Shown here in pieces: positions 26,345 to 38,543 of a stretch of 64,000 nt of DNA; the first letter of the stretch is position 1, and each line of letters opens with the position of its first letter. The notes under the pieces were generated by a model. The model was not told the origin of the DNA. It did not search any database and saw only the letters and a program-made list of their open reading frames with translations. The translations under genes were made by a program, and so were the position numbers. Origin of the DNA: Spirochaetales bacterium (GTDB taxonomy: Bacteria; Spirochaetota; Spirochaetia; Treponematales; UBA12059); contig JAFGNN010000065.1 in assembly GCA_016926955.1 (NCBI GenBank), forward strand, positions 1 to 64,000, written 5' to 3'.

Positions 26345-28354
26345 TCAACGCGCGGCGCCTTCCTGGGCTTTGTCGTCGCGGAAGGACAGGCTTACCAATG
26401 CTTTCCATTCCGCGCCCGGAGCGAGCCGGAGCCGCCATTCCAGGGCGACGGCCAGGCCTTGCCAACGCGCCTCTCCGTCGCTCCGGTCTTTGTATGGGGC
26501 GATGATGATACGGCACGGCTTGTCCGAGGCGAGGGTGAGCGGGTCAGCCAGATCGGGGCCTGCGAGCGTGGCCTTGAGCGCGTTCTGGTATGCCTGGGAT
26601 TCCTTCGCCCCGACCGCGAGCTCCCGCTCGACGCCGTCGGCTTCCCTGGCGAGCACCGTGAGCGCGTGTCCGTCGGGGACGTACGATGGGACGAAGTGGA
26701 AGGCGCTCAGGAACGTACGATCGATCGGCTCTTCCGAGAGGTTGCGGAAAAGATAGCGGACGCCGAGCTGGCTTTTCTTGAAGACGTAGGTTTTTTCCAA
26801 GGAGAAGGCCTGGCCGCCGCTCCGCCCGGACAGCGCTGCTTCCAGAAGGAAGCCCGCTTCATGGTTCGGACGCTTCGGCTCGAGGATCGAGTACCAGAAG
26901 GCGGCGAGGTTCGCGTCCGGGTCGAGCAGGCCCGAAGCGAGTGCCTCGGTCGAAACGGGAGATGCCGGAAGGGAGTCTACGAAGCAGCGTCGCCTGAGCG
27001 AGCCCTTTTCGGTCGCCGTGCCTCCATAGCCCGAGGCCAGGTTCCGCCGCGACTTGAAGTGGTCGAGCTCGAAGAGGACGCCCCCTCGGGCGTGTACGTA
27101 TGCGTTGTACGATTGCCCCTGGAAAAGCGTTTCCTTGACGCGGTCGCTGTCGATGTCCGCCTGTATGATGCCAGGCCTGAAGCTTCCCTTCTGGCGGGTG
27201 ATCTGCTCCGCCTCCAGCAGCGAAGCGTACGCGGCGCCGCGGATCGCCGGATCGGCGATGCCGCCGGAAGGGGCGGTCCAGTAGGCCTCCGCGCACTGGG
27301 AGCTCCAAAGCTCCTCCTGCGCGGTCTTCTTTCGCGCCTTGTCGCCGCGAAGTTGCGATACCAGCAGGTGTACGTACTGCATGCGCGCGTAGAGGAGCGA
27401 CGCCTCCTCGGTCCGGATCAGCGCCTGCCTGATGCCGCCCGGGCGCGGGTAGCCGTTGGCGCCTCCTCCGAGCCGCTTGCGGATGGCCTGGAGCTCGGCG
27501 AGCAACGCGTGCGAGGCGCCCGCGTCGAGGAAGCGGTCGCTGGCGGAACTGGGGAAGTATGCTCGTTCCAGCTGCCCCGTAGACTTGAGGTAGCGTCCGG
27601 GCAGAACGGTCTCCACCTCGGGCGCCAGGTGCGCGAGGGCCGAGAAGCTTCGCTCGAAGTACACGTCCGGCGATTCGAGGCCCGAGGCGAGCCAGAGTTC
27701 CTCAGCGCGCTCGCCGGGCAACATGAGGCCCAGGAAAGACGCGTCCGGTTGCTTCGACCGCAGGCTTTGAAGCGATTCCGCGTAACCGCCGACCGTGGCG
27801 AAGGACGCCACGCAGTCGTGGATCGGGAAAACGACGATGTCGCGCCCCTGGTCCTCCGTGGTGACCGGGCCATCGAAAATTTCGCCCGAAAGGCCGGCGG
27901 CCTGGAAGGCGCGGTCGAGCAGGAAGGTGTAATCCATGCCGCTGGTCTTGAGCGAACTCGCGACGGACGGTTCCCACGCGTATTCGGCCAGCCAGCAGCC
28001 CCGCGGCCTCCGGCCGAAGCTCTTGCGTATCAGGACGGTGAGGGCTTCGACCTGGCCGATCCGGTCGGGACCGGGCACCCAGGCCAGAATCGGCTCGAAA
28101 TAGGCTCCGCCTACCAGCTCGACCTGCTTCCGGCTCGCCATTTCCGCCAGAAGCATGATGAATTCGGGATGCCTGCGTTCCAGCCAGACCAGAAGGCTGC
28201 CGCTGTAATGGAGGGTCGCCTGAAGCTCCGGGAAGCGGTACAGAACCGAAAGGAAGGGCCTATAGCTCTTCTGGTACGTCGACTCGAGCACGGTCTCCGA
28301 GCTGCCGGGGGGAAGGTGGTTATAAGAGCCAACGAGTAGCTGGATTTTCTTCAT
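26345..28354 (-). CDS. Glycoside hydrolase family 57 alpha-amylase/4-alpha-glucanotransferase-like
   Basis: LLVGSYNHLPPGSSE ... VELVGGAYFEPILAWVPGPDRIGQVE ... GCWLAEYAWEPSV; C-terminal DUF1926-like region. Confidence 0.85.
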   Translation of the reverse strand: MKKIQLLVGSYNHLPPGSSETVLESTYQKSYRPFLSVLYRFPELQATLHYSGSLLVWLERRHPEFIMLLAEMASRKQVELVGGAYFEPILAWVPGPDRIGQVEALTVLIRKSFGRRPRGCWLAEYAWEPSVASSLKTSGMDYTFLLDRAFQAAGLSGEIFDGPVTTEDQGRDIVVFPIHDCVASFATVGGYAESLQSLRSKQPDASFLGLMLPGERAEELWLASGLESPDVYFERSFSALAHLAPEVETVLPGRYLKSTGQLERAYFPSSASDRFLDAGASHALLAELQAIRKRLGGGANGYPRPGGIRQALIRTEEASLLYARMQYVHLLVSQLRGDKARKKTAQEELWSSQCAEAYWTAPSGGIADPAIRGAAYASLLEAEQITRQKGSFRPGIIQADIDSDRVKETLFQGQSYNAYVHARGGVLFELDHFKSRRNLASGYGGTATEKGSLRRRCFVDSLPASPVSTEALASGLLDPDANLAAFWYSILEPKRPNHEAGFLLEAALSGRSGGQAFSLEKTYVFKKSQLGVRYLFRNLSEEPIDRTFLSAFHFVPSYVPDGHALTVLAREADGVERELAVGAKESQAYQNALKATLAGPDLADPLTLASDKPCRIIIAPYKDRSDGEARWQGLAVALEWRLRLAPGAEWKALVSLSFRDDKAQEGAAR

Positions 28355-28394: not shown

Positions 28395-29252
28395 CTAGCG
28401 TCGGGGCTTCCGGTAGGGCGAAGCGCGAAAATCCTCATCCTTGCCGTCCCCCGAACCCGGAGCCGCGTATTCGGGCTTGCGGATGCACGCGTGGTGACAA
28501 GCGGCGGCGATGTCGTCGTGGGTCCCCGTGGAGACCTCGACCGCGCGGGCCAGGTTGTCACTGACGCGAAATTCGCCGTTTCCCGAAAGGCGCTCGCAGG
28601 CGCGGCAGGCATCGCAGGCTACATCGCAGTAGAGGGCCTTGGTTGCGGCGCTCTCCGTGGAATTGCAGGCGACGAACCAGGAATTCCTGTCGCGGACCAG
28701 CTGTATGACCCCGTTGGGGCAGGAATCGACGCAGTCGCCGCAGCCGTCACATCGATCCGCGTTGATACGGGCGAGGCCGTTCCGGATCGAGATCGCGCCT
28801 ACGGGGCAAACGGCTACGCAGTCACCGAACCCGAGGCAGGCCGATTCGCACCCTCGCTCGCCACCGTAAAAGGAGGCTGCCGAACGGCAGTCGCGCAGAC
28901 CCTGATAGGCGAAGCGCGCGCGTGTGCGATCGCGGGATCCGGCGCATGCGATTACGGCGACTGACTCCGAAGCGCCCGTCCGGCCGAGCAGCGCGTCGAT
29001 CCGCTCGGCTGATTCGCGGTCCAGTGCCGCGCACTGGGCGGGCCGAGCCTTGCCGTACTCGAGGCGCTCCGCGAAAACCGAGCAGTCGTCCGCTCCGCAC
29101 GCGCCGCAATCCCAGCCGGGCAGCGCCGCACGGATCCTGCGGGACGCTTCGCGGCGCGTTCCGCCGCCAGGCGAGAAGGAGAGCGCCACCGCGGCTACGA
29201 AAGAGGCCAGCGCGAGCGAGAAGATGGCGGCGAACAACCTGAGCCAGATCAT
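28395..29252 (-). CDS. rnfB: RnfB-like ferredoxin subunit
   Basis: DCGACGADDCSVFAERLEYGKARPAQC ... CESACLGFGDCVAVCPVGAI ... CDGCGDCVDSCPNGVI. Confidence 0.9.
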   Translation of the reverse strand: MIWLRLFAAIFSLALASFVAAVALSFSPGGGTRREASRRIRAALPGWDCGACGADDCSVFAERLEYGKARPAQCAALDRESAERIDALLGRTGASESVAVIACAGSRDRTRARFAYQGLRDCRSAASFYGGERGCESACLGFGDCVAVCPVGAISIRNGLARINADRCDGCGDCVDSCPNGVIQLVRDRNSWFVACNSTESAATKALYCDVACDACRACERLSGNGEFRVSDNLARAVEVSTGTHDDIAAACHHACIRKPEYAAPGSGDGKDEDFRASPYRKPRR

Positions 29253-29842
29253 CGTGCGCTCCCGAACCAGGGTCCGAGCATGGCCTCCAGGCCGTGGAAA
29301 GCGAGCGCGAGGAGGCCCGCGGAGATGAAGTACGCGGGCGCGCCCTTGAACGCTTGAGGCAAGCGTTCAAGTTCGAGCCGCTCCCGGATGGCGTCGAGTA
29401 TGGCGGACGCGGCCAGGTAGCCGAGGGCGCCCGAGAACGAGGCGACGATAAGGGAGGATCCGTTACGCGCGATCCCCGAGGCCGCCAGGGCGATGCCGTA
29501 GATGGCGCAGCTCGCGGAGAGCCGCTCGAACGATTTGGACATGCGCTCCGCGAAGGCTCCGTTCAGCCTGGAGGCGCCGAAGGCAAGGGCGGAACCGGTG
29601 GCGAAGGAAAGCAGCATGAACGCGAAGGGATCGAGGGCGCCCAAGCCCAGCGGACGGAGCGCAAAACGCGAGAGGAGCCCGTGGAGGATGGCGGTGACGA
29701 TCGCGGAAACCAGGAAGGCGAGGCTTCCCGCGAGGTCGCGGGGCAAGGACGGTCCCCGGCACCCGGAACAGGTGCCGGCGCCGTATCGCAACAGCGCATT
29801 GAGGCCGAACACCGACATGAAGGCAACGCCGACCATGCTCAT
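29249..29842 (-). CDS. rnfA: RnfA-like membrane subunit
   Basis: Position in rnfCDGEAB order, six-TM pattern, GTC near residue 25 and SCAIYG at residue 112. Confidence 0.75.
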   Translation of the reverse strand: MSMVGVAFMSVFGLNALLRYGAGTCSGCRGPSLPRDLAGSLAFLVSAIVTAILHGLLSRFALRPLGLGALDPFAFMLLSFATGSALAFGASRLNGAFAERMSKSFERLSASCAIYGIALAASGIARNGSSLIVASFSGALGYLAASAILDAIRERLELERLPQAFKGAPAYFISAGLLALAFHGLEAMLGPWFGSAR

Positions 29843-30453
29843 GGATTCCTCCGCAATCTCCGCTTCAGCTCCTTCGCCAGCGCCATACCCGCGCCGAGCA
29901 CGATGAAGCCTCCCGACGGCAAGGCGGCGAGACGGAGCAGGGAGGCTGTCCCGCCCTCGACGCCTGGCGGAATCTCCCTCGCGGCGGCGAACGGCGCGAG
30001 CAGGGAGCCGGTCGAGAGAAGTTCCCTCGCCGCCCCGAGCGCGAGAGCGGAAAGGAAGAACAGAAGGGCCGTGACCAGCCGACCCGGCAGGCGTGACAGG
30101 TCCTCGTCATCTCCGGACACGCCGGCCGCGGCAAGGACCAGGCAGTTGGCGCCGGCGAGGGACAGCCAGAAATTCAGCCGGTCCCACATGCCGGGGGCCA
30201 GGGCCCTCACGCCGAGCGACCAGATCGAGGCGGCCATCGCGACTACGAGCGCGGTCGCCAAACGCTGGAAAGGCTTTTCGACCAAGCGTCTCGCGAACGG
30301 CGCGACGGTCGCCGCGACGAGCATCGCGAAAGCGACGGATCCTCCGAGCGCGACGGCGTCGGAGAGGCAGACGGAACCGATTGCCACGGGGGCAAGACCG
30401 AGCGCCGAAAGGAAGGCGGGATCCCTCCGCGGGCGATTAGCTGTTCGATTCAC
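29839..30453 (-). CDS. rnfE: RnfE-like membrane subunit
   Basis: Position in rnfCDGEAB order, TM pattern, ALGLAP..., GANCLVLAAAG. Confidence 0.75.
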   Translation of the reverse strand: MNRTANRPRRDPAFLSALGLAPVAIGSVCLSDAVALGGSVAFAMLVAATVAPFARRLVEKPFQRLATALVVAMAASIWSLGVRALAPGMWDRLNFWLSLAGANCLVLAAAGVSGDDEDLSRLPGRLVTALLFFLSALALGAARELLSTGSLLAPFAAAREIPPGVEGGTASLLRLAALPSGGFIVLGAGMALAKELKRRLRRNP

Positions 30454-30998
30454 TGGTCCTCCGAATTCAAGAAGCCGGCGGCGGCGCAGGCCCTGACGAA
30501 GGCGGCCACGGCCTCGTCGACCGCGCGCCTTGAGGCCTCCGGACCTACGCCCGGACCTGATGGACCGTGCTCGGGCGCGGCGCCCGCGCGGACGGACAGC
30601 TCGTCCGAAAGCGCCGTGGCCGCGTACGCCGGCGAGCCGCCGGCCACCCTGGCGGCGAGGAGCCTCCCCGAACGGTCGACCGCGAGCTCGACCGGGAACG
30701 CGCCTTCCGGCAATCGGGCCAGGACCACTCCCGCAGCCGCGGCGGCGGCGCGGCCGCCCGTTCCGAGCACCGGGAAAAGGGCCAGCACCGCCTCGTCCCT
30801 CGGCGTACGGTCCTCGGCGCCTGGCGAACCGAGGCCCGCGCCCTGCGCCGAGAGCAGACGGGAAACGGATGCCCTGTGTGACAGCGATTCCGCCGATCCG
30901 GAAAGCCAGCCCAGCGCGCCCGCGGGAACGAGCGCAGCGGCGATCACGCCGGCCAGTACGGCCGATCTGCGAAACTTCACGCTTGCCGATGCATTCAT
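30450..30998 (-). CDS. rnfG: RnfG-like protein (divergent)
   Basis: Between rnfD and rnfE; single N-terminal TM; ASRRAVDEAV resembles the region after the FMN site. Confidence 0.65.
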   Translation of the reverse strand: MNASASVKFRRSAVLAGVIAAALVPAGALGWLSGSAESLSHRASVSRLLSAQGAGLGSPGAEDRTPRDEAVLALFPVLGTGGRAAAAAAGVVLARLPEGAFPVELAVDRSGRLLAARVAGGSPAYAATALSDELSVRAGAAPEHGPSGPGVGPEASRRAVDEAVAAFVRACAAAGFLNSEDQ

Positions 30999-32086
30999 GC
31001 GTCCCTCCGCTTCCGCGCGCGTCCCGACGGCGGGAAGGCCTTGTCGAGGAGAGGCACGAGGGCGTTCATGATCAGCACCGCGTAGGCGCTACCGTCGGGC
31101 AAGGCGCCCCAGCGACGGAACGCGAAGGCGAGGGCGCCGGCGCCGGCGCCGAACAAGGCGAGCGCGGGGCGGGAAACCGGCGTGGTTACCGGATCTGCGA
31201 GCGCAAAAACTGCCGTCAGTATGAACCCGCCGGAGAAAAGCGCGAACAGCGCGTCGCCCGACATGAAGTCCCCTCCAGCGCCGCCGAAAAGCCGTGCGAG
31301 GAATCCGAATGCGAGCAGGGCCGAGAAGGGAGCTTCCCAGCGGATCATCTTCCTCGAGATCAGAATCACGGAGGCGAACAGGAGCAGAATTCCGGCGACC
31401 TCGCCTATCGCCCCGGGCCGGAACCCGAGCGCCAGGTCCACGTATCCGCCGGGCAGTTCCGCGCCGAGCGGGCCGAACACGTGGTCGTTGAGGAATCCCG
31501 TCGCCCGGCCGTCGAACGCCGACACGGGGTAGCCAGCCTGCTTGAGAACCTCGAGAGGCAGGGACACGCGGGCTCCGCCGGTCGCGTCGGCCAGGTAGCC
31601 GAGGGGAGTCGAGGCGCTGAGTCCGTCGACCCCGGATAGAATGCGCGGCATGACCCATCCGCCGAGCATCTCGTCATGCCAGTTGACCTGCGCGAACGCG
31701 ATGCCCGCGAGCGCCGGGTTCATCCAGTTTCCCCCGAGTCCTCCGAAGCTCCATTTGACCACGAGGATCGCGAATGAGGCGGACAGGGCCGGAATGTGCA
31801 GCGCGACGCCCGGCGGCATCGCGGCGGCGAGGATGAGCGCGGACAGGAGGGCGCTGCCGTCCCCCAGGGTGTAGCGGCGCGCCAGGAGGTTCGCGCCTCC
31901 TTCCGAGAGCAGCGCCGCGGCGATGGAAACCATGGCGACGAGGAGCACCCGCGGTCCGAAGATCCAGGAGCTCCACGCGAAGGCCGGAAGCAGCGCGGCC
32001 GCGGCGCCGAAGCAGAGCGAGGACGTCGAGCGGCCAACGTGGATGAAAGGCGCGGCGGAGACGATGGGGTACCGGTTCCGCGTCAT
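30995..32086 (-). CDS. rnfD: RnfD-like membrane subunit
   Basis: APFIHVGRSTSSLCFGAAAALLPA ... GGNWMNPALAGIAF ... DGLSASTPLG; start corrected to 32086. Confidence 0.9.
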   Translation of the reverse strand: MTRNRYPIVSAAPFIHVGRSTSSLCFGAAAALLPAFAWSSWIFGPRVLLVAMVSIAAALLSEGGANLLARRYTLGDGSALLSALILAAAMPPGVALHIPALSASFAILVVKWSFGGLGGNWMNPALAGIAFAQVNWHDEMLGGWVMPRILSGVDGLSASTPLGYLADATGGARVSLPLEVLKQAGYPVSAFDGRATGFLNDHVFGPLGAELPGGYVDLALGFRPGAIGEVAGILLLFASVILISRKMIRWEAPFSALLAFGFLARLFGGAGGDFMSGDALFALFSGGFILTAVFALADPVTTPVSRPALALFGAGAGALAFAFRRWGALPDGSAYAVLIMNALVPLLDKAFPPSGRARKRRDA

Positions 32087-33393
32087 CGCGTTTCCTCCGG
32101 CGGACGTTTCATGGCGGTCGCGAAACATTGCGCGAGCGGTATCCGGGACGGGCAGGCGTAGGCGCAGGCGCCGCAGAGCGTGCACTCCCCGAGCCCCTCC
32201 GCCCTCATGTCCTGGAACAGCCCCTTCCCGTAAAGCTTGTGGAGACGCATCGGGTCCAGTCCTTCCGGACAGGCCTGAACGCAGACTCCGCACCTGACGC
32301 AAGCCCGCTCCGGTCGGGTCCTCGTTTCCTCGGCGGTCAGGGCGAGCACCATGGCCGTGGTCTTGGTGATCGGAATATCCAGATCGGGGCAAACGCGCCC
32401 TTCAAGGGCCCCGTCCAGAACGATGCGCTGTGGGGTATGCCTGAATCCTCCGCATTCCTCGAAGAGGGCTCCGATCGAGGTGCCGATCCTGGCTTTGAGG
32501 ATCGCGGGCGTCTTCACCGCGCCGCCCGCGACGAGCACGCAACGTTCGAGCGAGGGTTTCTCTTCGGCGACCGCCTCGTATACTTCGGCGAGCAGTGACG
32601 GAGCGATGAAGAAGGACCGCGTGGTCGAGGTCGTCACCCTGGCCTCGAGCAGCGCCGCGTCGATGCGTCCCGGAAGGTGCTGAGGGAACATGCGGGGTAC
32701 CGTGAACGCCTGTATGGGAGGTCCCTCGGAGCCTTTCACGCCATCCCAGGCCAGGGCGACGGAGGCATCGGCATCGTCGAAAACCGCGAAGGCGGACAGG
32801 GGCGCGAGAACCCGGCAGAGCATCTCGAACCCTTCTAGGACATTTTCCCGCCGCTCGGACAGGACCTGGACCTCGACCGGGTTCCGGGGCTCTCCGGTCA
32901 GCGCCGTAACCACGATGAGCTCGCACGGGCTCCCGTCCTCGAAGGCCGAAAGCGCCTCTGCGAGCGGGATGCCGTCGGACGCGCGCACGAGGCCGCGATC
33001 GCGGATGGCGCGCACGATCTCGTGGCGCTGCATGGAACGCCAGGGAGTGAGCCGCGGGGGCTTCCCGAGGCGCGAGAACGAGCCGGAAAGGGCGACCTCG
33101 ACGGCGTCGCACTCGACGCCTCCGGCCAGCCGGACACGGGAGACGCGGCGGACCAGGCCCGGCACCGGTGAATGGACGTCGGCGGACGCCCTTCCCTCGC
33201 CGCGTCCGAGAAGCTGGCCTTCCTCGACACGATCTCCCGGCCTCACGACGCAACGCGCCGGGGCGCCCGCGTGCTGACGCAGCGGCACCACGGCGATGGC
33301 GGGCAGATAGGCGTTTCTTGCTTGCTCGGTCAAGCGAACCGGCTCTCCGGCGATCAAGAGACCGCCGGTCCGGAAATTCCTGAGTCTTTTCAT
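32083..33393 (-). CDS. rnfC: RnfC-like subunit
   Basis: CVRCGVCVQACPEGLDPMRL ... CTLCGACAYACPSRIPL (two 4Fe-4S motifs); N-terminal barrel-sandwich. Confidence 0.88.
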   Translation of the reverse strand: MKRLRNFRTGGLLIAGEPVRLTEQARNAYLPAIAVVPLRQHAGAPARCVVRPGDRVEEGQLLGRGEGRASADVHSPVPGLVRRVSRVRLAGGVECDAVEVALSGSFSRLGKPPRLTPWRSMQRHEIVRAIRDRGLVRASDGIPLAEALSAFEDGSPCELIVVTALTGEPRNPVEVQVLSERRENVLEGFEMLCRVLAPLSAFAVFDDADASVALAWDGVKGSEGPPIQAFTVPRMFPQHLPGRIDAALLEARVTTSTTRSFFIAPSLLAEVYEAVAEEKPSLERCVLVAGGAVKTPAILKARIGTSIGALFEECGGFRHTPQRIVLDGALEGRVCPDLDIPITKTTAMVLALTAEETRTRPERACVRCGVCVQACPEGLDPMRLHKLYGKGLFQDMRAEGLGECTLCGACAYACPSRIPLAQCFATAMKRPPEETR

Positions 33394-34964
33394 GCTGCTT
33401 CCCGGACCTTTCCCGAAGCCGCCTCGGCGACGGCTCTAGCCAACAGGTTCGCGCCGCCCGAGGCGGCGAAGGGGACGAGGGCGAGTATATAAACGAGAAT
33501 TTCGATCAAGGCAAGGCGTCGCGGGGCGCCGGGGCCGTCGAGCGCCTCGAGCCTGACGCCTGCGTTCCCGCCGGCCTCGACGAGGAGCGCCTCCACGGAT
33601 CCCGGAGGAAAGGTCGCGTCCGAAGGATCGGAAACCGTCGCGAGCGCGGCCGCCGCTGGCTCCACGAGCCCTCCCTCCCCTCGCCGGAAACCCTGCATCG
33701 CGATCGGCTCGTTCGAGCCGTAGACGGAGTCGCCGAGCCGCTCGTACAGAACGCTCCGCTGGAACGCCGCGTGGGCAGCGGCGTCGGCCAGGTCCGGAAG
33801 ACGCGAAACGGAAGGATCAAGGGCGAGCGCGGCAGTGAGCGGAATTCCGGATCCGGTCTTCGACGGACGCTCCACGGGCACGGGTATCGGGATGCCGCCC
33901 GCGTTCCCGCCGCCGGGTCCCGGACCGCCCGCGTACGAGAGTGGAAGCGCGAGCAATGCAAGCAGGGCTATAGCCGGGGATAGCGGAGCGAAGGCGTTGG
34001 CGGTCTTGCGCCTCGTACGGGATACTATCGGGACGGGCGTGAAGGAATTCCGGCCCTCCCTCTTCCGCTCCATGGAGCGGAAGCCCGCGACGGCCTCGAA
34101 GGCCGCGGCCTGGGCGAGCGCGCAGAGCGAGGCGACGGGTATCAGGTCAGGTTCCATGACTGCCAGGATGACGACTGCCGCGAGCATGCTGCCTCCGGCG
34201 GCGCCGAGCAGGCTCCCGAGTCGGTCCAGCGCTCGTGCGACAAGAGGTCCGCGCGCTTCGGAGTGGCGGTAGGGAAGCAGGCCGCTAACCCGGGCTCCCG
34301 CGAGCGAGGCAAGCAGGGCGACCGCGGTGGCGGGAGCGCCGCCCGCCCACCAGAGCGGAGCCCAGACCAGGGAACCGAGCAGGCGCTCGCTCCGGCGGCG
34401 GCGCGAAGAGAAGGTCGATACCAGCGCGAAAGCGGCCGGCAGGGTCCAGAGGAAGCGCGCCCGCGGCGCGCCGCGCTCGGCCACCATCCATGAACGCTCG
34501 CCGCCCGGCCCCAGAGCCCGTTCCAGGGCTTTCCGCGCCGCGTTCTCTGACGATGCCGCGTACAGGACGTGCCAGGACCTGTCGCCCGAGCGTACCGTAA
34601 AATAGCGCGCGAGGCCATCCAGCCAGGGATCGCGCCGGGGATCGCCCGGAACGAGGCGCCGCGCGGCTTCGAGGAAGGGGACGGTCACGACGCGCTCGAA
34701 ATCCGCCAAGAGCACGGTCTGGCTCGATTCGGATACCACGTCAGCGATTCCGGCGCCCGACAGCGCCGCAAGGGCCTCATCGAGAGCCGGCGAACCGGGA
34801 GCCTCCGCGGAAGCGGCGACGAGAACCATGACCCGGCCCGGCCAGGGCGACGCCGCGCTGGTCGAATGCGGGGCCAGGGCGCATCCCGCTATGGCCAAGG
34901 CGAGCGCCGCGCTGGCCGCGGCCGCGAGCCTCACCGGCTTGCCGTCAAGCTCCCTCATGCTCAC
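33390..34964 (-). CDS. Unknown membrane protein linked to the rnf operon
   Basis: 524 aa; N-terminal signal/lipobox-like LALAIAGC, soluble segment, then several TMs; 4-nt overlap with rnfC. Confidence 0.75.
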   Translation of the reverse strand: MSMRELDGKPVRLAAAASAALALAIAGCALAPHSTSAASPWPGRVMVLVAASAEAPGSPALDEALAALSGAGIADVVSESSQTVLLADFERVVTVPFLEAARRLVPGDPRRDPWLDGLARYFTVRSGDRSWHVLYAASSENAARKALERALGPGGERSWMVAERGAPRARFLWTLPAAFALVSTFSSRRRRSERLLGSLVWAPLWWAGGAPATAVALLASLAGARVSGLLPYRHSEARGPLVARALDRLGSLLGAAGGSMLAAVVILAVMEPDLIPVASLCALAQAAAFEAVAGFRSMERKREGRNSFTPVPIVSRTRRKTANAFAPLSPAIALLALLALPLSYAGGPGPGGGNAGGIPIPVPVERPSKTGSGIPLTAALALDPSVSRLPDLADAAAHAAFQRSVLYERLGDSVYGSNEPIAMQGFRRGEGGLVEPAAAALATVSDPSDATFPPGSVEALLVEAGGNAGVRLEALDGPGAPRRLALIEILVYILALVPFAASGGANLLARAVAEAASGKVREAA

Positions 34965-34970
34965 TCGGGT

Positions 34971-35459
34971 CTACAGGCGGTAGAATGCCAGGGTTATGAA
35001 AAACCCGAGCAGCGCCCCGACGAGTACCTGGGGGAAGGTGTGCCCGTGCACTTCCTTGACGGGATGAAACGAAACGCCGATCCGCTCGCGGACGTCCTTG
35101 CCGAACTGGTTGAAAGCCCTGGCCTGAAGCCCCGAGGCGCGACGGACACCCATCGCGTCGCGGATGACCACGAGGGCGAAGAAGAAGGAAAGCATGAACA
35201 CCGGCGAGTCGATGCCGGATTCGAACGCTATGGAGGTGGAAATGGAGACGGCGAGGGAGGAATGGCTCGACGGCATGCCTCCCGTGCGCCAGAGCAAGGT
35301 TTCGATCAGGTCTTTGACGGATCCGGCCCGTCGACGTAGCACCGCGATCGCCGCCTTGATGAACTGGGCGGTGAACATGCTCATTACGGCGGCGAGGAAT
35401 ATGGGGCTTTCCATGAAGGCCCGCAGGCCTGCGAACGAGAGGCTCTGGTCGTTGGGCAT
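34971..35459 (-). CDS. Divergent PAP2 (DUF212) family membrane protein
   Basis: FTAQFIKAAIAVL ... LLWRTGGMPSSHSSLAVSISTSIAFESGIDSPVF ... GHTFPQVLVGALLG. Confidence 0.9.
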   Translation of the reverse strand: MPNDQSLSFAGLRAFMESPIFLAAVMSMFTAQFIKAAIAVLRRRAGSVKDLIETLLWRTGGMPSSHSSLAVSISTSIAFESGIDSPVFMLSFFFALVVIRDAMGVRRASGLQARAFNQFGKDVRERIGVSFHPVKEVHGHTFPQVLVGALLGFFITLAFYRL

Positions 35460-35544
35460 CGCGGTACTTTCCCGCACGAGGCGCCGATTGTCAAGATGCG
35501 CAGACACGCTTGACCTTGCCCCCTGGCCCGTCGTAGCCTCATAA

Positions 35545-36498
35545 GTGCTTATGGAGAAAAGCGATCCGATCATCCTCGTCGCGGGCCCCGACGACGGGGG
35601 CAAACGGCTCGACCGGGTCGCCCGGGGGCTGCTCGGCTCCGTGCCGCTCTCCGCCGTGTTCCGCGGCATCCGTACCGGAGATATCAGGCTCAATGGCCGC
35701 CGTTCGGCGAACGACGCCCGGCTCGTCCCCGGGGACGAAATCCGGATCTCGGGACGCTACGCGGAGAGCCTGCGCGCCGCTCCCTCGGGCAGGCCCGAAG
35801 CCTCGACAGTCCCGCGAGTCCTCCCGGACGTGCTTGGCCGTACTCGGGACTTGGTCTTCGTCTCCAAGCCGCGCGGCATGCTGAGCCATGGCGCCGGAGG
35901 CCTTGACGAGCTCGCGGCGGACATACTCGGGCCCCTCCCGGAAATCTCGCTGGCTTTCCGCCCCGCCCCCCTGCACCGCCTCGACAGGAACACGAGCGGC
36001 GTCGTGGCGATTTCCGCCAGCATACGGGGTGCCCGGGCCTTCTCCGCCGCCCTGCGCGACGGGCGGGTGTCGAAACGCTACCTCGCCCTGGTCGAGGGTC
36101 GGCTCGACGGCCCCGAAGACTGGAGCGCGCCGCTCGAACGCGACGGAACCCGGAAAATCACGATGGCCGCCCGCGATGCGGGGAAAGCCGCCTCCACGTT
36201 CGCCGAACCCGTCGCTTGCGACGGCCGGCTCACCCTCGCCCTCGTCTCCATCGGCACCGGAGTGACCCACCAGATCAGGGCCCACGCCGCCCTCGCCGGC
36301 CATCCGCTCGCGGGCGACCTGAAATATGGAGGAAAGCCCTTCCCCGGCGGGTATGTCCTCCATGCCTGGGCGCTGGACCTTCCCGCGGACCTCGGCTGCG
36401 AAACGCCCGCGGCGGTTCGGGCGCCCCTTCCCCCGGCCGCGCTCGAGGCGCTCGCCGCCCGATTCGGAAGCCAAGCGCTCGCGCCGTTCGCCCGCTGA
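35545..36498 (+). CDS. RluA family pseudouridine synthase with S4 domain
   Basis: GKRLDRVARGLLG ... PLHRLDRNTSGVVAISAS ... GVTHQIRAHAALAGHPLAGDLKYGG. Confidence 0.93.
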   Translation: MLMEKSDPIILVAGPDDGGKRLDRVARGLLGSVPLSAVFRGIRTGDIRLNGRRSANDARLVPGDEIRISGRYAESLRAAPSGRPEASTVPRVLPDVLGRTRDLVFVSKPRGMLSHGAGGLDELAADILGPLPEISLAFRPAPLHRLDRNTSGVVAISASIRGARAFSAALRDGRVSKRYLALVEGRLDGPEDWSAPLERDGTRKITMAARDAGKAASTFAEPVACDGRLTLALVSIGTGVTHQIRAHAALAGHPLAGDLKYGGKPFPGGYVLHAWALDLPADLGCETPAAVRAPLPPAALEALAARFGSQALAPFAR

Positions 36499-36594: not shown

Positions 36595-37566
36595 ATGGCG
36601 GAACGCAACGTCACGCCGCCGCGCTTGCCGATCAAGGTCGGGACCATCGTCCTCGTGCTGGTCGCCCTCGCGGCGCTCGGGTTCCTCGGAACCAGCGTCT
36701 TCGTGGTGGACCAGACCGAACAGGCGGTCGTCACGACCCTCGGCAAATTCACCAGAATCGCGGAAGCGGGATTGCACTGGAAGGCGCCCTTCGGCATACA
36801 GCGCAACTACAACGTCAAGACTAAGGTGGTGCAGACCGAGCAATTCGGCTTCCGCACGGAGCAGGCCGGAATCCAGACCATGTACTCCAATGCGCTCTAC
36901 CCCGAAGAATCCACGATGCTCACCGGCGACCTCAACATTGTCGACGTCGAGTGGATCATCCAGTACCGCATCGAGGACCCGCGCGCCTGGCAGTTCAACG
37001 TCGAGGAGCGCCACCGCACCATCCGCGACATCTCGCAGTCGGTCATCAACAAGCTGGTGGGAGACAGGACCATCCTGGACGTCATCGGCTCCGAACGGCT
37101 CAACATCGAGTCGCAGGGCCTCGAGCTGATGAACGAAACCTTCGGCCGCTACGGCATGGGCATCAAGGTCATCGCTGTCAAGCTCCAGAACATCGTGCCG
37201 CCCGCCGGCGTGCAGGCCGCCTTCGAGGACGTCAACAAGGCCATCCAGGACATGAACCGCCTGATCAACGAAGGGAAGGAAGCCTACAACACCGAGATCC
37301 CGAAGGCCCGCGGCGAGGCCGACCGCATCGAGCAGGTGGCCCTGGGCTACGCTACCGAGCGCGTCAATAAGGCGCGCGGCGACGTCGCCCGCTTCGACGC
37401 CGTCTGGGCGGAGTACGTCAAGGCTCCCGCGGTCACCCGCGAGCGGCTCTATTACGAGATGATCGAGCAGGTCTTCGGTTCCGACTCCGACGTCGACCTC
37501 ATCGACAGCGAGCTCGGCAACTTCCTGCCGATCAAGACCCTCGGCGCGGACGGAGGCACCCGATGA
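36595..37566 (+). CDS. hflK: SPFH protease regulator HflK
   Basis: FLGTSVFVVDQTEQAVVTTLGKFTRIAEAGLHWKAPFGIQ; precedes hflC. Confidence 0.93.
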   Translation: MAERNVTPPRLPIKVGTIVLVLVALAALGFLGTSVFVVDQTEQAVVTTLGKFTRIAEAGLHWKAPFGIQRNYNVKTKVVQTEQFGFRTEQAGIQTMYSNALYPEESTMLTGDLNIVDVEWIIQYRIEDPRAWQFNVEERHRTIRDISQSVINKLVGDRTILDVIGSERLNIESQGLELMNETFGRYGMGIKVIAVKLQNIVPPAGVQAAFEDVNKAIQDMNRLINEGKEAYNTEIPKARGEADRIEQVALGYATERVNKARGDVARFDAVWAEYVKAPAVTRERLYYEMIEQVFGSDSDVDLIDSELGNFLPIKTLGADGGTR

Positions 37567-38543
37567 AGAAGCTCGTCATCGCGCTCGCGGCCATCGTCGC
37601 GCTTGTCGTCGCGTTCCTGGCCATCGGTCCCTTCTTCGTCCTCTACGAGGGACAGCAGGCCGTGGTCGTCCGCCTCGGCCAGATCGTGGCGACCCATACG
37701 GAGGCCGGGCTGAAATTCAAGAGCCCGTTCGTCGACAACGTCGTCGTGTACTCCAAGAAAATATTGCCCTGGGACGGGGAGCCGCAGCGCATCCCCACCA
37801 AGGAAAACCAGTTCATCTTCGTGGACATGACGGCGCGCTGGCGCATCGCCGACCCGATCAAGTTCTACGAGTCCGTCACGACGATCAACGACGCGTACGG
37901 CAGGCTCGACGACGTCATCGACAGCGCGGTCCGCACCATCATCAGCAAGAATTTCCTCCGCGAAGCGGTCCGGAATTCCAACGTCATCATGGAATCGACG
38001 AACGTCGAGACCTTCGAGACCGGCGACGCCGCCGACTCCGACAGCCTCAGGCAGCTCACCCAGACCGAGTCCACCTTCGAGCTCATCGAGAAGGGCCGCG
38101 AGCGGCTCTCCAACGACATGCTCGCGGAGGTCGGACGGCTGGTGCCGGAATACGGCATCGAGGTGATCGACGTGGTGCCGCGCCAGATCAAGTACTCGGA
38201 GGAGCTGACCGAGAGCGTCTACAGCCGCATGATCAAGGAGCGCAACCAGATCGCCCAGGCCTTCCGGAGCCTCGGCGAGGGCAAGAAGGCCGAATGGCTC
38301 GGCAAGCTCGAGAACGAGCAGCGCACCATACTCTCCGGCGCCTACGAGAAGGCCGAGACGCTGAAGGGCGCCGCGGACGCGGAGGCGACCGCCATCTACG
38401 CGCGGAGCTACGGCCGCGACCCGGCCTTCTACTCGTTCTGGCGCGCCCTCGAATCGTACAAGCAGACCATGCCGAGCTTCTCGAAGACCATCTCGACCGA
38501 GCTGGACTACTTCAAGTTCCTCTACGGCCCGTCGGGCCGCTAG
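37563..38543 (+). CDS. hflC: SPFH protease regulator HflC
   Basis: FVLYEGQQAVVVRLGQIVATHTEAGLKFKSPF. Confidence 0.93.
   Translation: MKKLVIALAAIVALVVAFLAIGPFFVLYEGQQAVVVRLGQIVATHTEAGLKFKSPFVDNVVVYSKKILPWDGEPQRIPTKENQFIFVDMTARWRIADPIKFYESVTTINDAYGRLDDVIDSAVRTIISKNFLREAVRNSNVIMESTNVETFETGDAADSDSLRQLTQTESTFELIEKGRERLSNDMLAEVGRLVPEYGIEVIDVVPRQIKYSEELTESVYSRMIKERNQIAQAFRSLGEGKKAEWLGKLENEQRTILSGAYEKAETLKGAADAEATAIYARSYGRDPAFYSFWRALESYKQTMPSFSKTISTELDYFKFLYGPSGR

Follow-up and report, generated by a model that had tools for sequence, protein, structure and literature searches.

The Rnf complex (RnfABCDGE) is a Na+/H+-translocating ferredoxin:NAD+ oxidoreductase whose subunits and cofactors have been described (PMC9588780, PMC12174285, PMC11889175); four invariant cysteines of RnfA and RnfE hold a 2Fe-2S cluster (PMC9588780, PMC12174285). 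Na+-NQR is a duplicate of the rnf operon that lacks rnfB and the cofactors of RnfC (NqrA) and that took on a new role (PMC4014512). In Treponema pallidum, Rnf has been published as an atypical, flavodoxin-driven redox pump (PMC7512555, PMC11371664).

Here we analyse an rnf operon in a 64,000-nucleotide stretch of contig JAFGNN010000065.1 from a Spirochaetales bacterium (the window; genome G000), in which rnfC is preceded by a gene for a membrane protein that we call X. The locus resembles Rnf in that homologues of C, D, E, A and B and a gene at the rnfG position lie in one operon, and X-linked copies keep the 4Fe-4S motifs of RnfC and the core residues of RnfD. It departs from Rnf in the extra gene and in the loss, across X-linked copies, of the RnfC FMN/NAD motif and the FMN-acceptor Thr of RnfG; depending on the lineage, one to four of the RnfA/E cysteines, the RnfD FMN motif and RnfB have gone as well. 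Na+-NQR offers a precedent for an rnf duplicate with a changed role and without rnfB and the RnfC cofactors. However, no NqrF was seen in the X block, X-linked copies have lost the NqrD/E-type cysteines that NQR keeps, and the window genome carries a separate Nqr. The T. pallidum 'atypical RNF' (TP0151, an RnfD, and its neighbours) is of the same lineage and shares the order DUF212-rnfC-D-G-E-A-GH57, but X and rnfB are missing there.

X founds a spirochaete-specific membrane protein family

A sequence-only reading of the window had singled out a 524-amino-acid frame ahead of rnfC, joined to it by an ATGA overlap, and our analysis bears out both (Table 1). The start codon is GTG, with an alternative ATG two codons downstream. 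A single-sequence search found homologues in 27 of 39 relatives; with a 15-row profile, 141 of the order's 197 genomes gave a match, as did a few further families within the class, so the frame is not a chance ORF. One weak match, in genome G211, was dismissed as chance; none of the block's neighbour genes occurs there. The same reading held X to be unlike the classical Rnf subunits, in agreement with our searches: X of the window had no match in Pfam or NCBIfam, 15 homologues run against Pfam gave chance-level matches only (none shared by two homologues; best E 0.1), and a PDB search with the 15-homologue profile returned no convincing relative. X founds a new spirochaete-specific membrane protein family, with dN/dS values of 0.15-0.42.

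Hydropathy supports the soluble segment and several transmembrane helices (TMs) proposed at the outset, the full layout starting with an N-terminal anchor and a soluble segment, followed by some four TMs, another soluble segment and, as a rule, a C-terminal TM. Because Arg-rich loops follow TM2 and precede TM5, the positive-inside rule, combined with hydropathy, would put the two soluble segments on the periplasmic side. A lipobox-like N-terminus had also been proposed. The window protein does contain AIAGC (Cys28), yet a lipobox-like Cys occurs in only 5 of 24 homologues; because most homologues lack it, we rejected the lipoprotein assignment and regard a signal anchor as the better reading of the N-terminus. 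Residues L68, D108, R110, F122, H398 and Q402 are invariant in the alignment and R103, P109 and L118 nearly so; no Cys is conserved.

AlphaFold models, built on an alignment of 4 sequences, were confident for the first putative periplasmic domain, which is predicted to be alpha/beta, and unusable for full-length X (pLDDT 48.8; Foldseek matches with E > 0.2). For domain 1, no fold matched at E < 0.001; ACT-, PII- and CutA-type ferredoxin-like folds came closest (best E 0.08, TM < 0.45), and we claim no homology to them. X may resemble the extracellular domain of FtsX.

Table 1. Positions of X, its conserved features and the neighbouring genes in the window
Feature	Position	Strand	Description
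GH57 gene	26345..28354	-	4-alpha-glucanotransferase-like; end of block
RnfB homologue	28395..29252	-	Fe-S motifs; many relatives lack the gene
RnfA homologue	29249..29842	-	Both cluster Cys present (GTCSGC, SASC); extra Cys nearby
RnfE homologue	29839..30453	-	Ala in place of the first cluster Cys (GLAPVAIG); second present (GANC)
rnfG-position gene	30450..30998	-	FMN-acceptor Thr lost: SGPG replaces SGAT
RnfD homologue	30995..32086	-	FMN-acceptor motif DGLSASTPL; covalent FMN Thr motif kept
RnfC homologue	32083..33393	-	Two CxxCxxCxxxC 4Fe-4S motifs present
ATGA overlap	33390-33393	-	X stop and rnfC start
X	33390..34964	-	524-aa membrane protein; undescribed spirochaete family; no Pfam/NCBIfam match
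X H398 and Q402	33759..33773	-	Invariant in alignment; second putative periplasmic segment
X domain 1	34467..34853	-	Residues 38-166, putative periplasmic domain; AlphaFold pLDDT 83.8, pTM 0.78
X Asp-Pro-Arg motif	34635..34643	-	D108 invariant, P109 near-invariant, R110 invariant (alignment)
DUF212 gene	34971..35462	-	Divergent PAP2; directly upstream of X; ATG 35462 picked by inspection

The X-linked operon of the window has lost part of its redox sites

Six base pairs separate the stop codon of the upstream DUF212 gene from the start of X, and 4-bp overlaps continue beyond X/rnfC through rnfC/rnfD, rnfD/G, G/E, E/A and A/B, with the rnfD start set at ATG 32086 (a longer ORF call begins too early). 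All of C, D, G, E, A and B are there, G being assigned by position only; this gene had no FMN_bind match. In RnfC, judged by sequence motif, the Gly-rich FMN/NAD site GMGGAGFP has become RASDGIP, and NAAECEPYLT is lost, TALTGEP standing in the window. RnfD keeps the equivalents of C. tetanomorphum Asn124 and Asp248. Three of the four RnfA/E cluster cysteines remain. RnfA has an extra Cys 3 residues past the first cluster Cys (CSGC), a possible stand-in for the ligand that RnfE has lost.

What the sequence-only reading missed is that the operon departs from a usual Rnf: redox sites have been lost, and the same genome encodes a canonical Rnf (contig C77, L054) and an Nqr (contig C12, L055), giving three RnfD/NqrB homologues. 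Because three RnfA/E cysteines, the extra Cys, RnfB and the RnfD FMN motif remain, loss in the window copy is incomplete, and some residual redox or electron transfer function is possible.

X is tightly but not obligately linked to rnf

We inspected 43 X loci by HMM-based gene finding. The order DUF212-X-rnfC-rnfD-G-E-A-(B)-GH57 is conserved: the next gene on the same strand after X is rnfC in 42 of the 43 loci, DUF212 precedes X, again in 42, and GH57 usually ends the block. At the X/rnfC junction, rnfC starts within a 4-bp overlap in 26 of 42 cases; the remaining genes lie close together without such an overlap. The adjacency is therefore more than occasional, as the sequence-only reading expected. 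Its further suggestion of an extra subunit or stoichiometric partner finds only partial support: the adjacency is near-constant, but the loci do not support obligate stoichiometry. One genome (G314; L112/L170) has DUF212-X-GH57 with no rnf between and no second Rnf, and two others, T. pallidum (G032) and G025, have rnf genes of the X-linked type with DUF212 and GH57 and without X. G030, G033 and G036 lack both X and the X-linked Rnf. The link between X and rnf is strong, yet not obligate.

Across seven species pairs, dN/dS was 0.04-0.42 for all block genes. Since these values are well below 1 throughout, the genes are functional and under purifying selection. DUF212 and GH57 are the most strongly constrained, DUF212 above all (0.04-0.13). 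In GH57, the equivalent of the nucleophile Glu123 is present in the window, but T. pallidum and T. denticola-type genomes have lost it; because the equivalent of the acid/base Asp214 is replaced in the window and in nearly all relatives (G399 being a possible exception), the homologue is probably a pseudo-enzyme.

Further out, positions 35545-36498 hold a gene divergent from DUF212 that, read by eye, is pseudouridine-synthase-like (RluD-type). This neighbour may be conserved too, because in T. pallidum the RNA pseudouridylate synthase TP0154 lies beside the DUF212-like TP0153 (PMC4403809). On the plus strand, 36595-38543 encodes an SPFH-type membrane protein pair (HflK/HflC-like, read by eye) with an ATGA overlap.

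Redox sites eroded in several lineages

Of 39 X-linked copies, 7 have the full set of four RnfA/E cysteines; the window and G001 have three. At the aligned positions, 25 of the 39 copies have none (21 when a shift of 2 residues is allowed). Only G360 and G399 keep the RnfC FMN/NAD motif, and G023 retains part of it; it is lost elsewhere, including in the window and G028. The FMN-acceptor Thr of RnfG was seen in G360, G399, G028 and G101, and as Ser in G065, the SGAT-type motif being lost in most copies; G028 combines an AGAT motif in RnfG with all four RnfA/E cysteines. The RnfD FMN motif is kept in the window's family and lost in families f3, f5 and f6, and rnfB, judged by position and PF04060, is absent from many copies. 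What persists is the pair of 4Fe-4S motifs, wherever RnfC is complete, and the RnfD residues equivalent to Asn124 (40 of 43) and Asp248 (34 of 43), with some weakening of these residues within family f3. In the genomes inspected, which span several families, reading frames are intact.

In RnfD trees, which came from quick searches and contain long branches, the X-linked proteins form one side of a branch against those of canonical Rnf and Nqr (SH-aLRT 98; 99 without five long rows). The canonical-like copies of G360, G399 and G023 fall near this split, and in G360 and G399 the Rnf of the same gene block is still complete. At least four changes of Cys state are needed on the tree. The X-linked type is the only Rnf in G049, G052, G026 and the genome-reduced T. 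pallidum.

T. pallidum retains only an eroded copy

We identified G032 (1.14 Mb, single contig) as T. pallidum on sequence: its TroA shows no mismatch to the T. pallidum structure 1TOA across the mature protein. Its X-linked-type RnfD (L159) is the only RnfD of the genome and lies in the order DUF212-rnfC-D-G-E-A-GH57; a search of the genome found no X, no recognisable RnfB and no PF02508 match. RnfA and RnfE have no Cys at the aligned positions, RnfD and RnfG lack the FMN-acceptor motif, and RnfC lacks the FMN/NAD motif. Two FMN_bind genes lie elsewhere in the genome, and Tp_0171 appears in a review as a flavinylated lipoprotein. These residue losses argue against reading the T. pallidum RNF as a flavodoxin-driven pump, and because the decayed copy is the only Rnf left, the proposed energy-conserving pump role is doubtful. 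Our literature search, which covered titles, abstracts and a few papers, found no published report of the site losses.

Discussion

Our tentative reading, the likeliest of those weighed here though held at somewhat below an even chance, is that X is a spirochaete-specific, periplasm-facing membrane partner of a second, redox-uncoupled Rnf whose core is a non-pumping conduit or scaffold. The X-linked complex would derive from a normal Rnf of the same block, such as G360 and G399 still have, by stepwise loss in several lineages of the RnfC FMN/NAD site, the 2Fe-2S cysteines of RnfA/E, the RnfG FMN and often RnfB, all of them components on which a ferredoxin:NAD+ pump depends. Selection still acts on the membrane core, on the RnfD residues proposed as an ion site and on the two 4Fe-4S clusters of RnfC; because these residues and clusters persist, we propose a cluster-controlled conduit or scaffold. 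The gene block, the losses at cofactor sites and purifying selection are observations; beyond them, we infer a single membrane assembly of X and the Rnf core, which would no longer pump by electron transfer, the core serving as a non-pumping conduit for ions or small solutes or as a membrane scaffold. The RnfC clusters would set its state from the cytoplasmic side and X, as a periplasmic regulator, from the other, replacing a shrunken, flavin-less RnfG. Against this reading stand the dissociation of X and rnf in both directions, the sites retained in the window, the absence of a fold match for X, the weaker keeping of the RnfD Asn/Asp residues in some of family f3 and the long branches of the quickly sampled RnfD trees.

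X might instead be functionally tied to DUF212 and the GH57 homologue in an envelope or lipid-glycan module into which rnf was inserted, X not acting on Rnf. G314, with DUF212-X-GH57 and no rnf in the block, fits this arrangement, as do the near-constant position of DUF212 ahead of X and the strong constraint on DUF212 and GH57. Such a module explains less well why rnfC follows X directly at all but one locus, so often with a 4-bp overlap, and why DUF212, rnf and GH57 persist in T. pallidum and G025, where X is absent; moreover, with its acid/base Asp lost almost everywhere, the GH57 homologue may not be an enzyme. We consider the module unlikely, though it deserves to be taken seriously.

Less probable still is that X is an extra stoichiometric subunit of an Rnf that remains active with altered partners, for example the flavodoxin proposed for T. 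pallidum. The translational coupling of X and rnfC would suit such a subunit, and the window (RnfB, three RnfA/E cysteines, the RnfC 4Fe-4S motifs and the RnfD FMN motif) and G028 (four cysteines and AGAT in RnfG) retain much of the machinery. Even these two, however, have lost the RnfC FMN/NAD motif; in most relatives the loss of the RnfA/E cysteines and RnfB would leave the U-shaped electron path without intermediates, and X has no conserved Cys to offer. That the X-linked rnf genes are merely pseudogenes in the making, kept by chance once a canonical Rnf had taken over, seems very improbable to us: the independent, stepwise loss of functional residues (the Cys changes on the RnfD tree) and of rnfB would be expected of decay, but frames are intact, dN/dS is low in every gene, and T. 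pallidum, despite its reduced genome, and G049, G052 and G026 retain solely this copy.

On the broader claim, that in spirochaetes a whole Rnf became a membrane machine without redox function, X supplying the periplasmic part, and that T. pallidum has only a redox-silent version, we stand just short of evenly divided. If true, this would be the second case, after NQR, of an rnf operon duplicate in a new role, which would here have arisen through loss of electron-transfer sites with the membrane core kept. It touches the open question of whether T. pallidum conserves energy by an atypical flavin-dependent Rnf pump, as papers propose; the site losses in its only Rnf make that model directly testable, and in other treponemes X is a new, genetically accessible handle on the complex.
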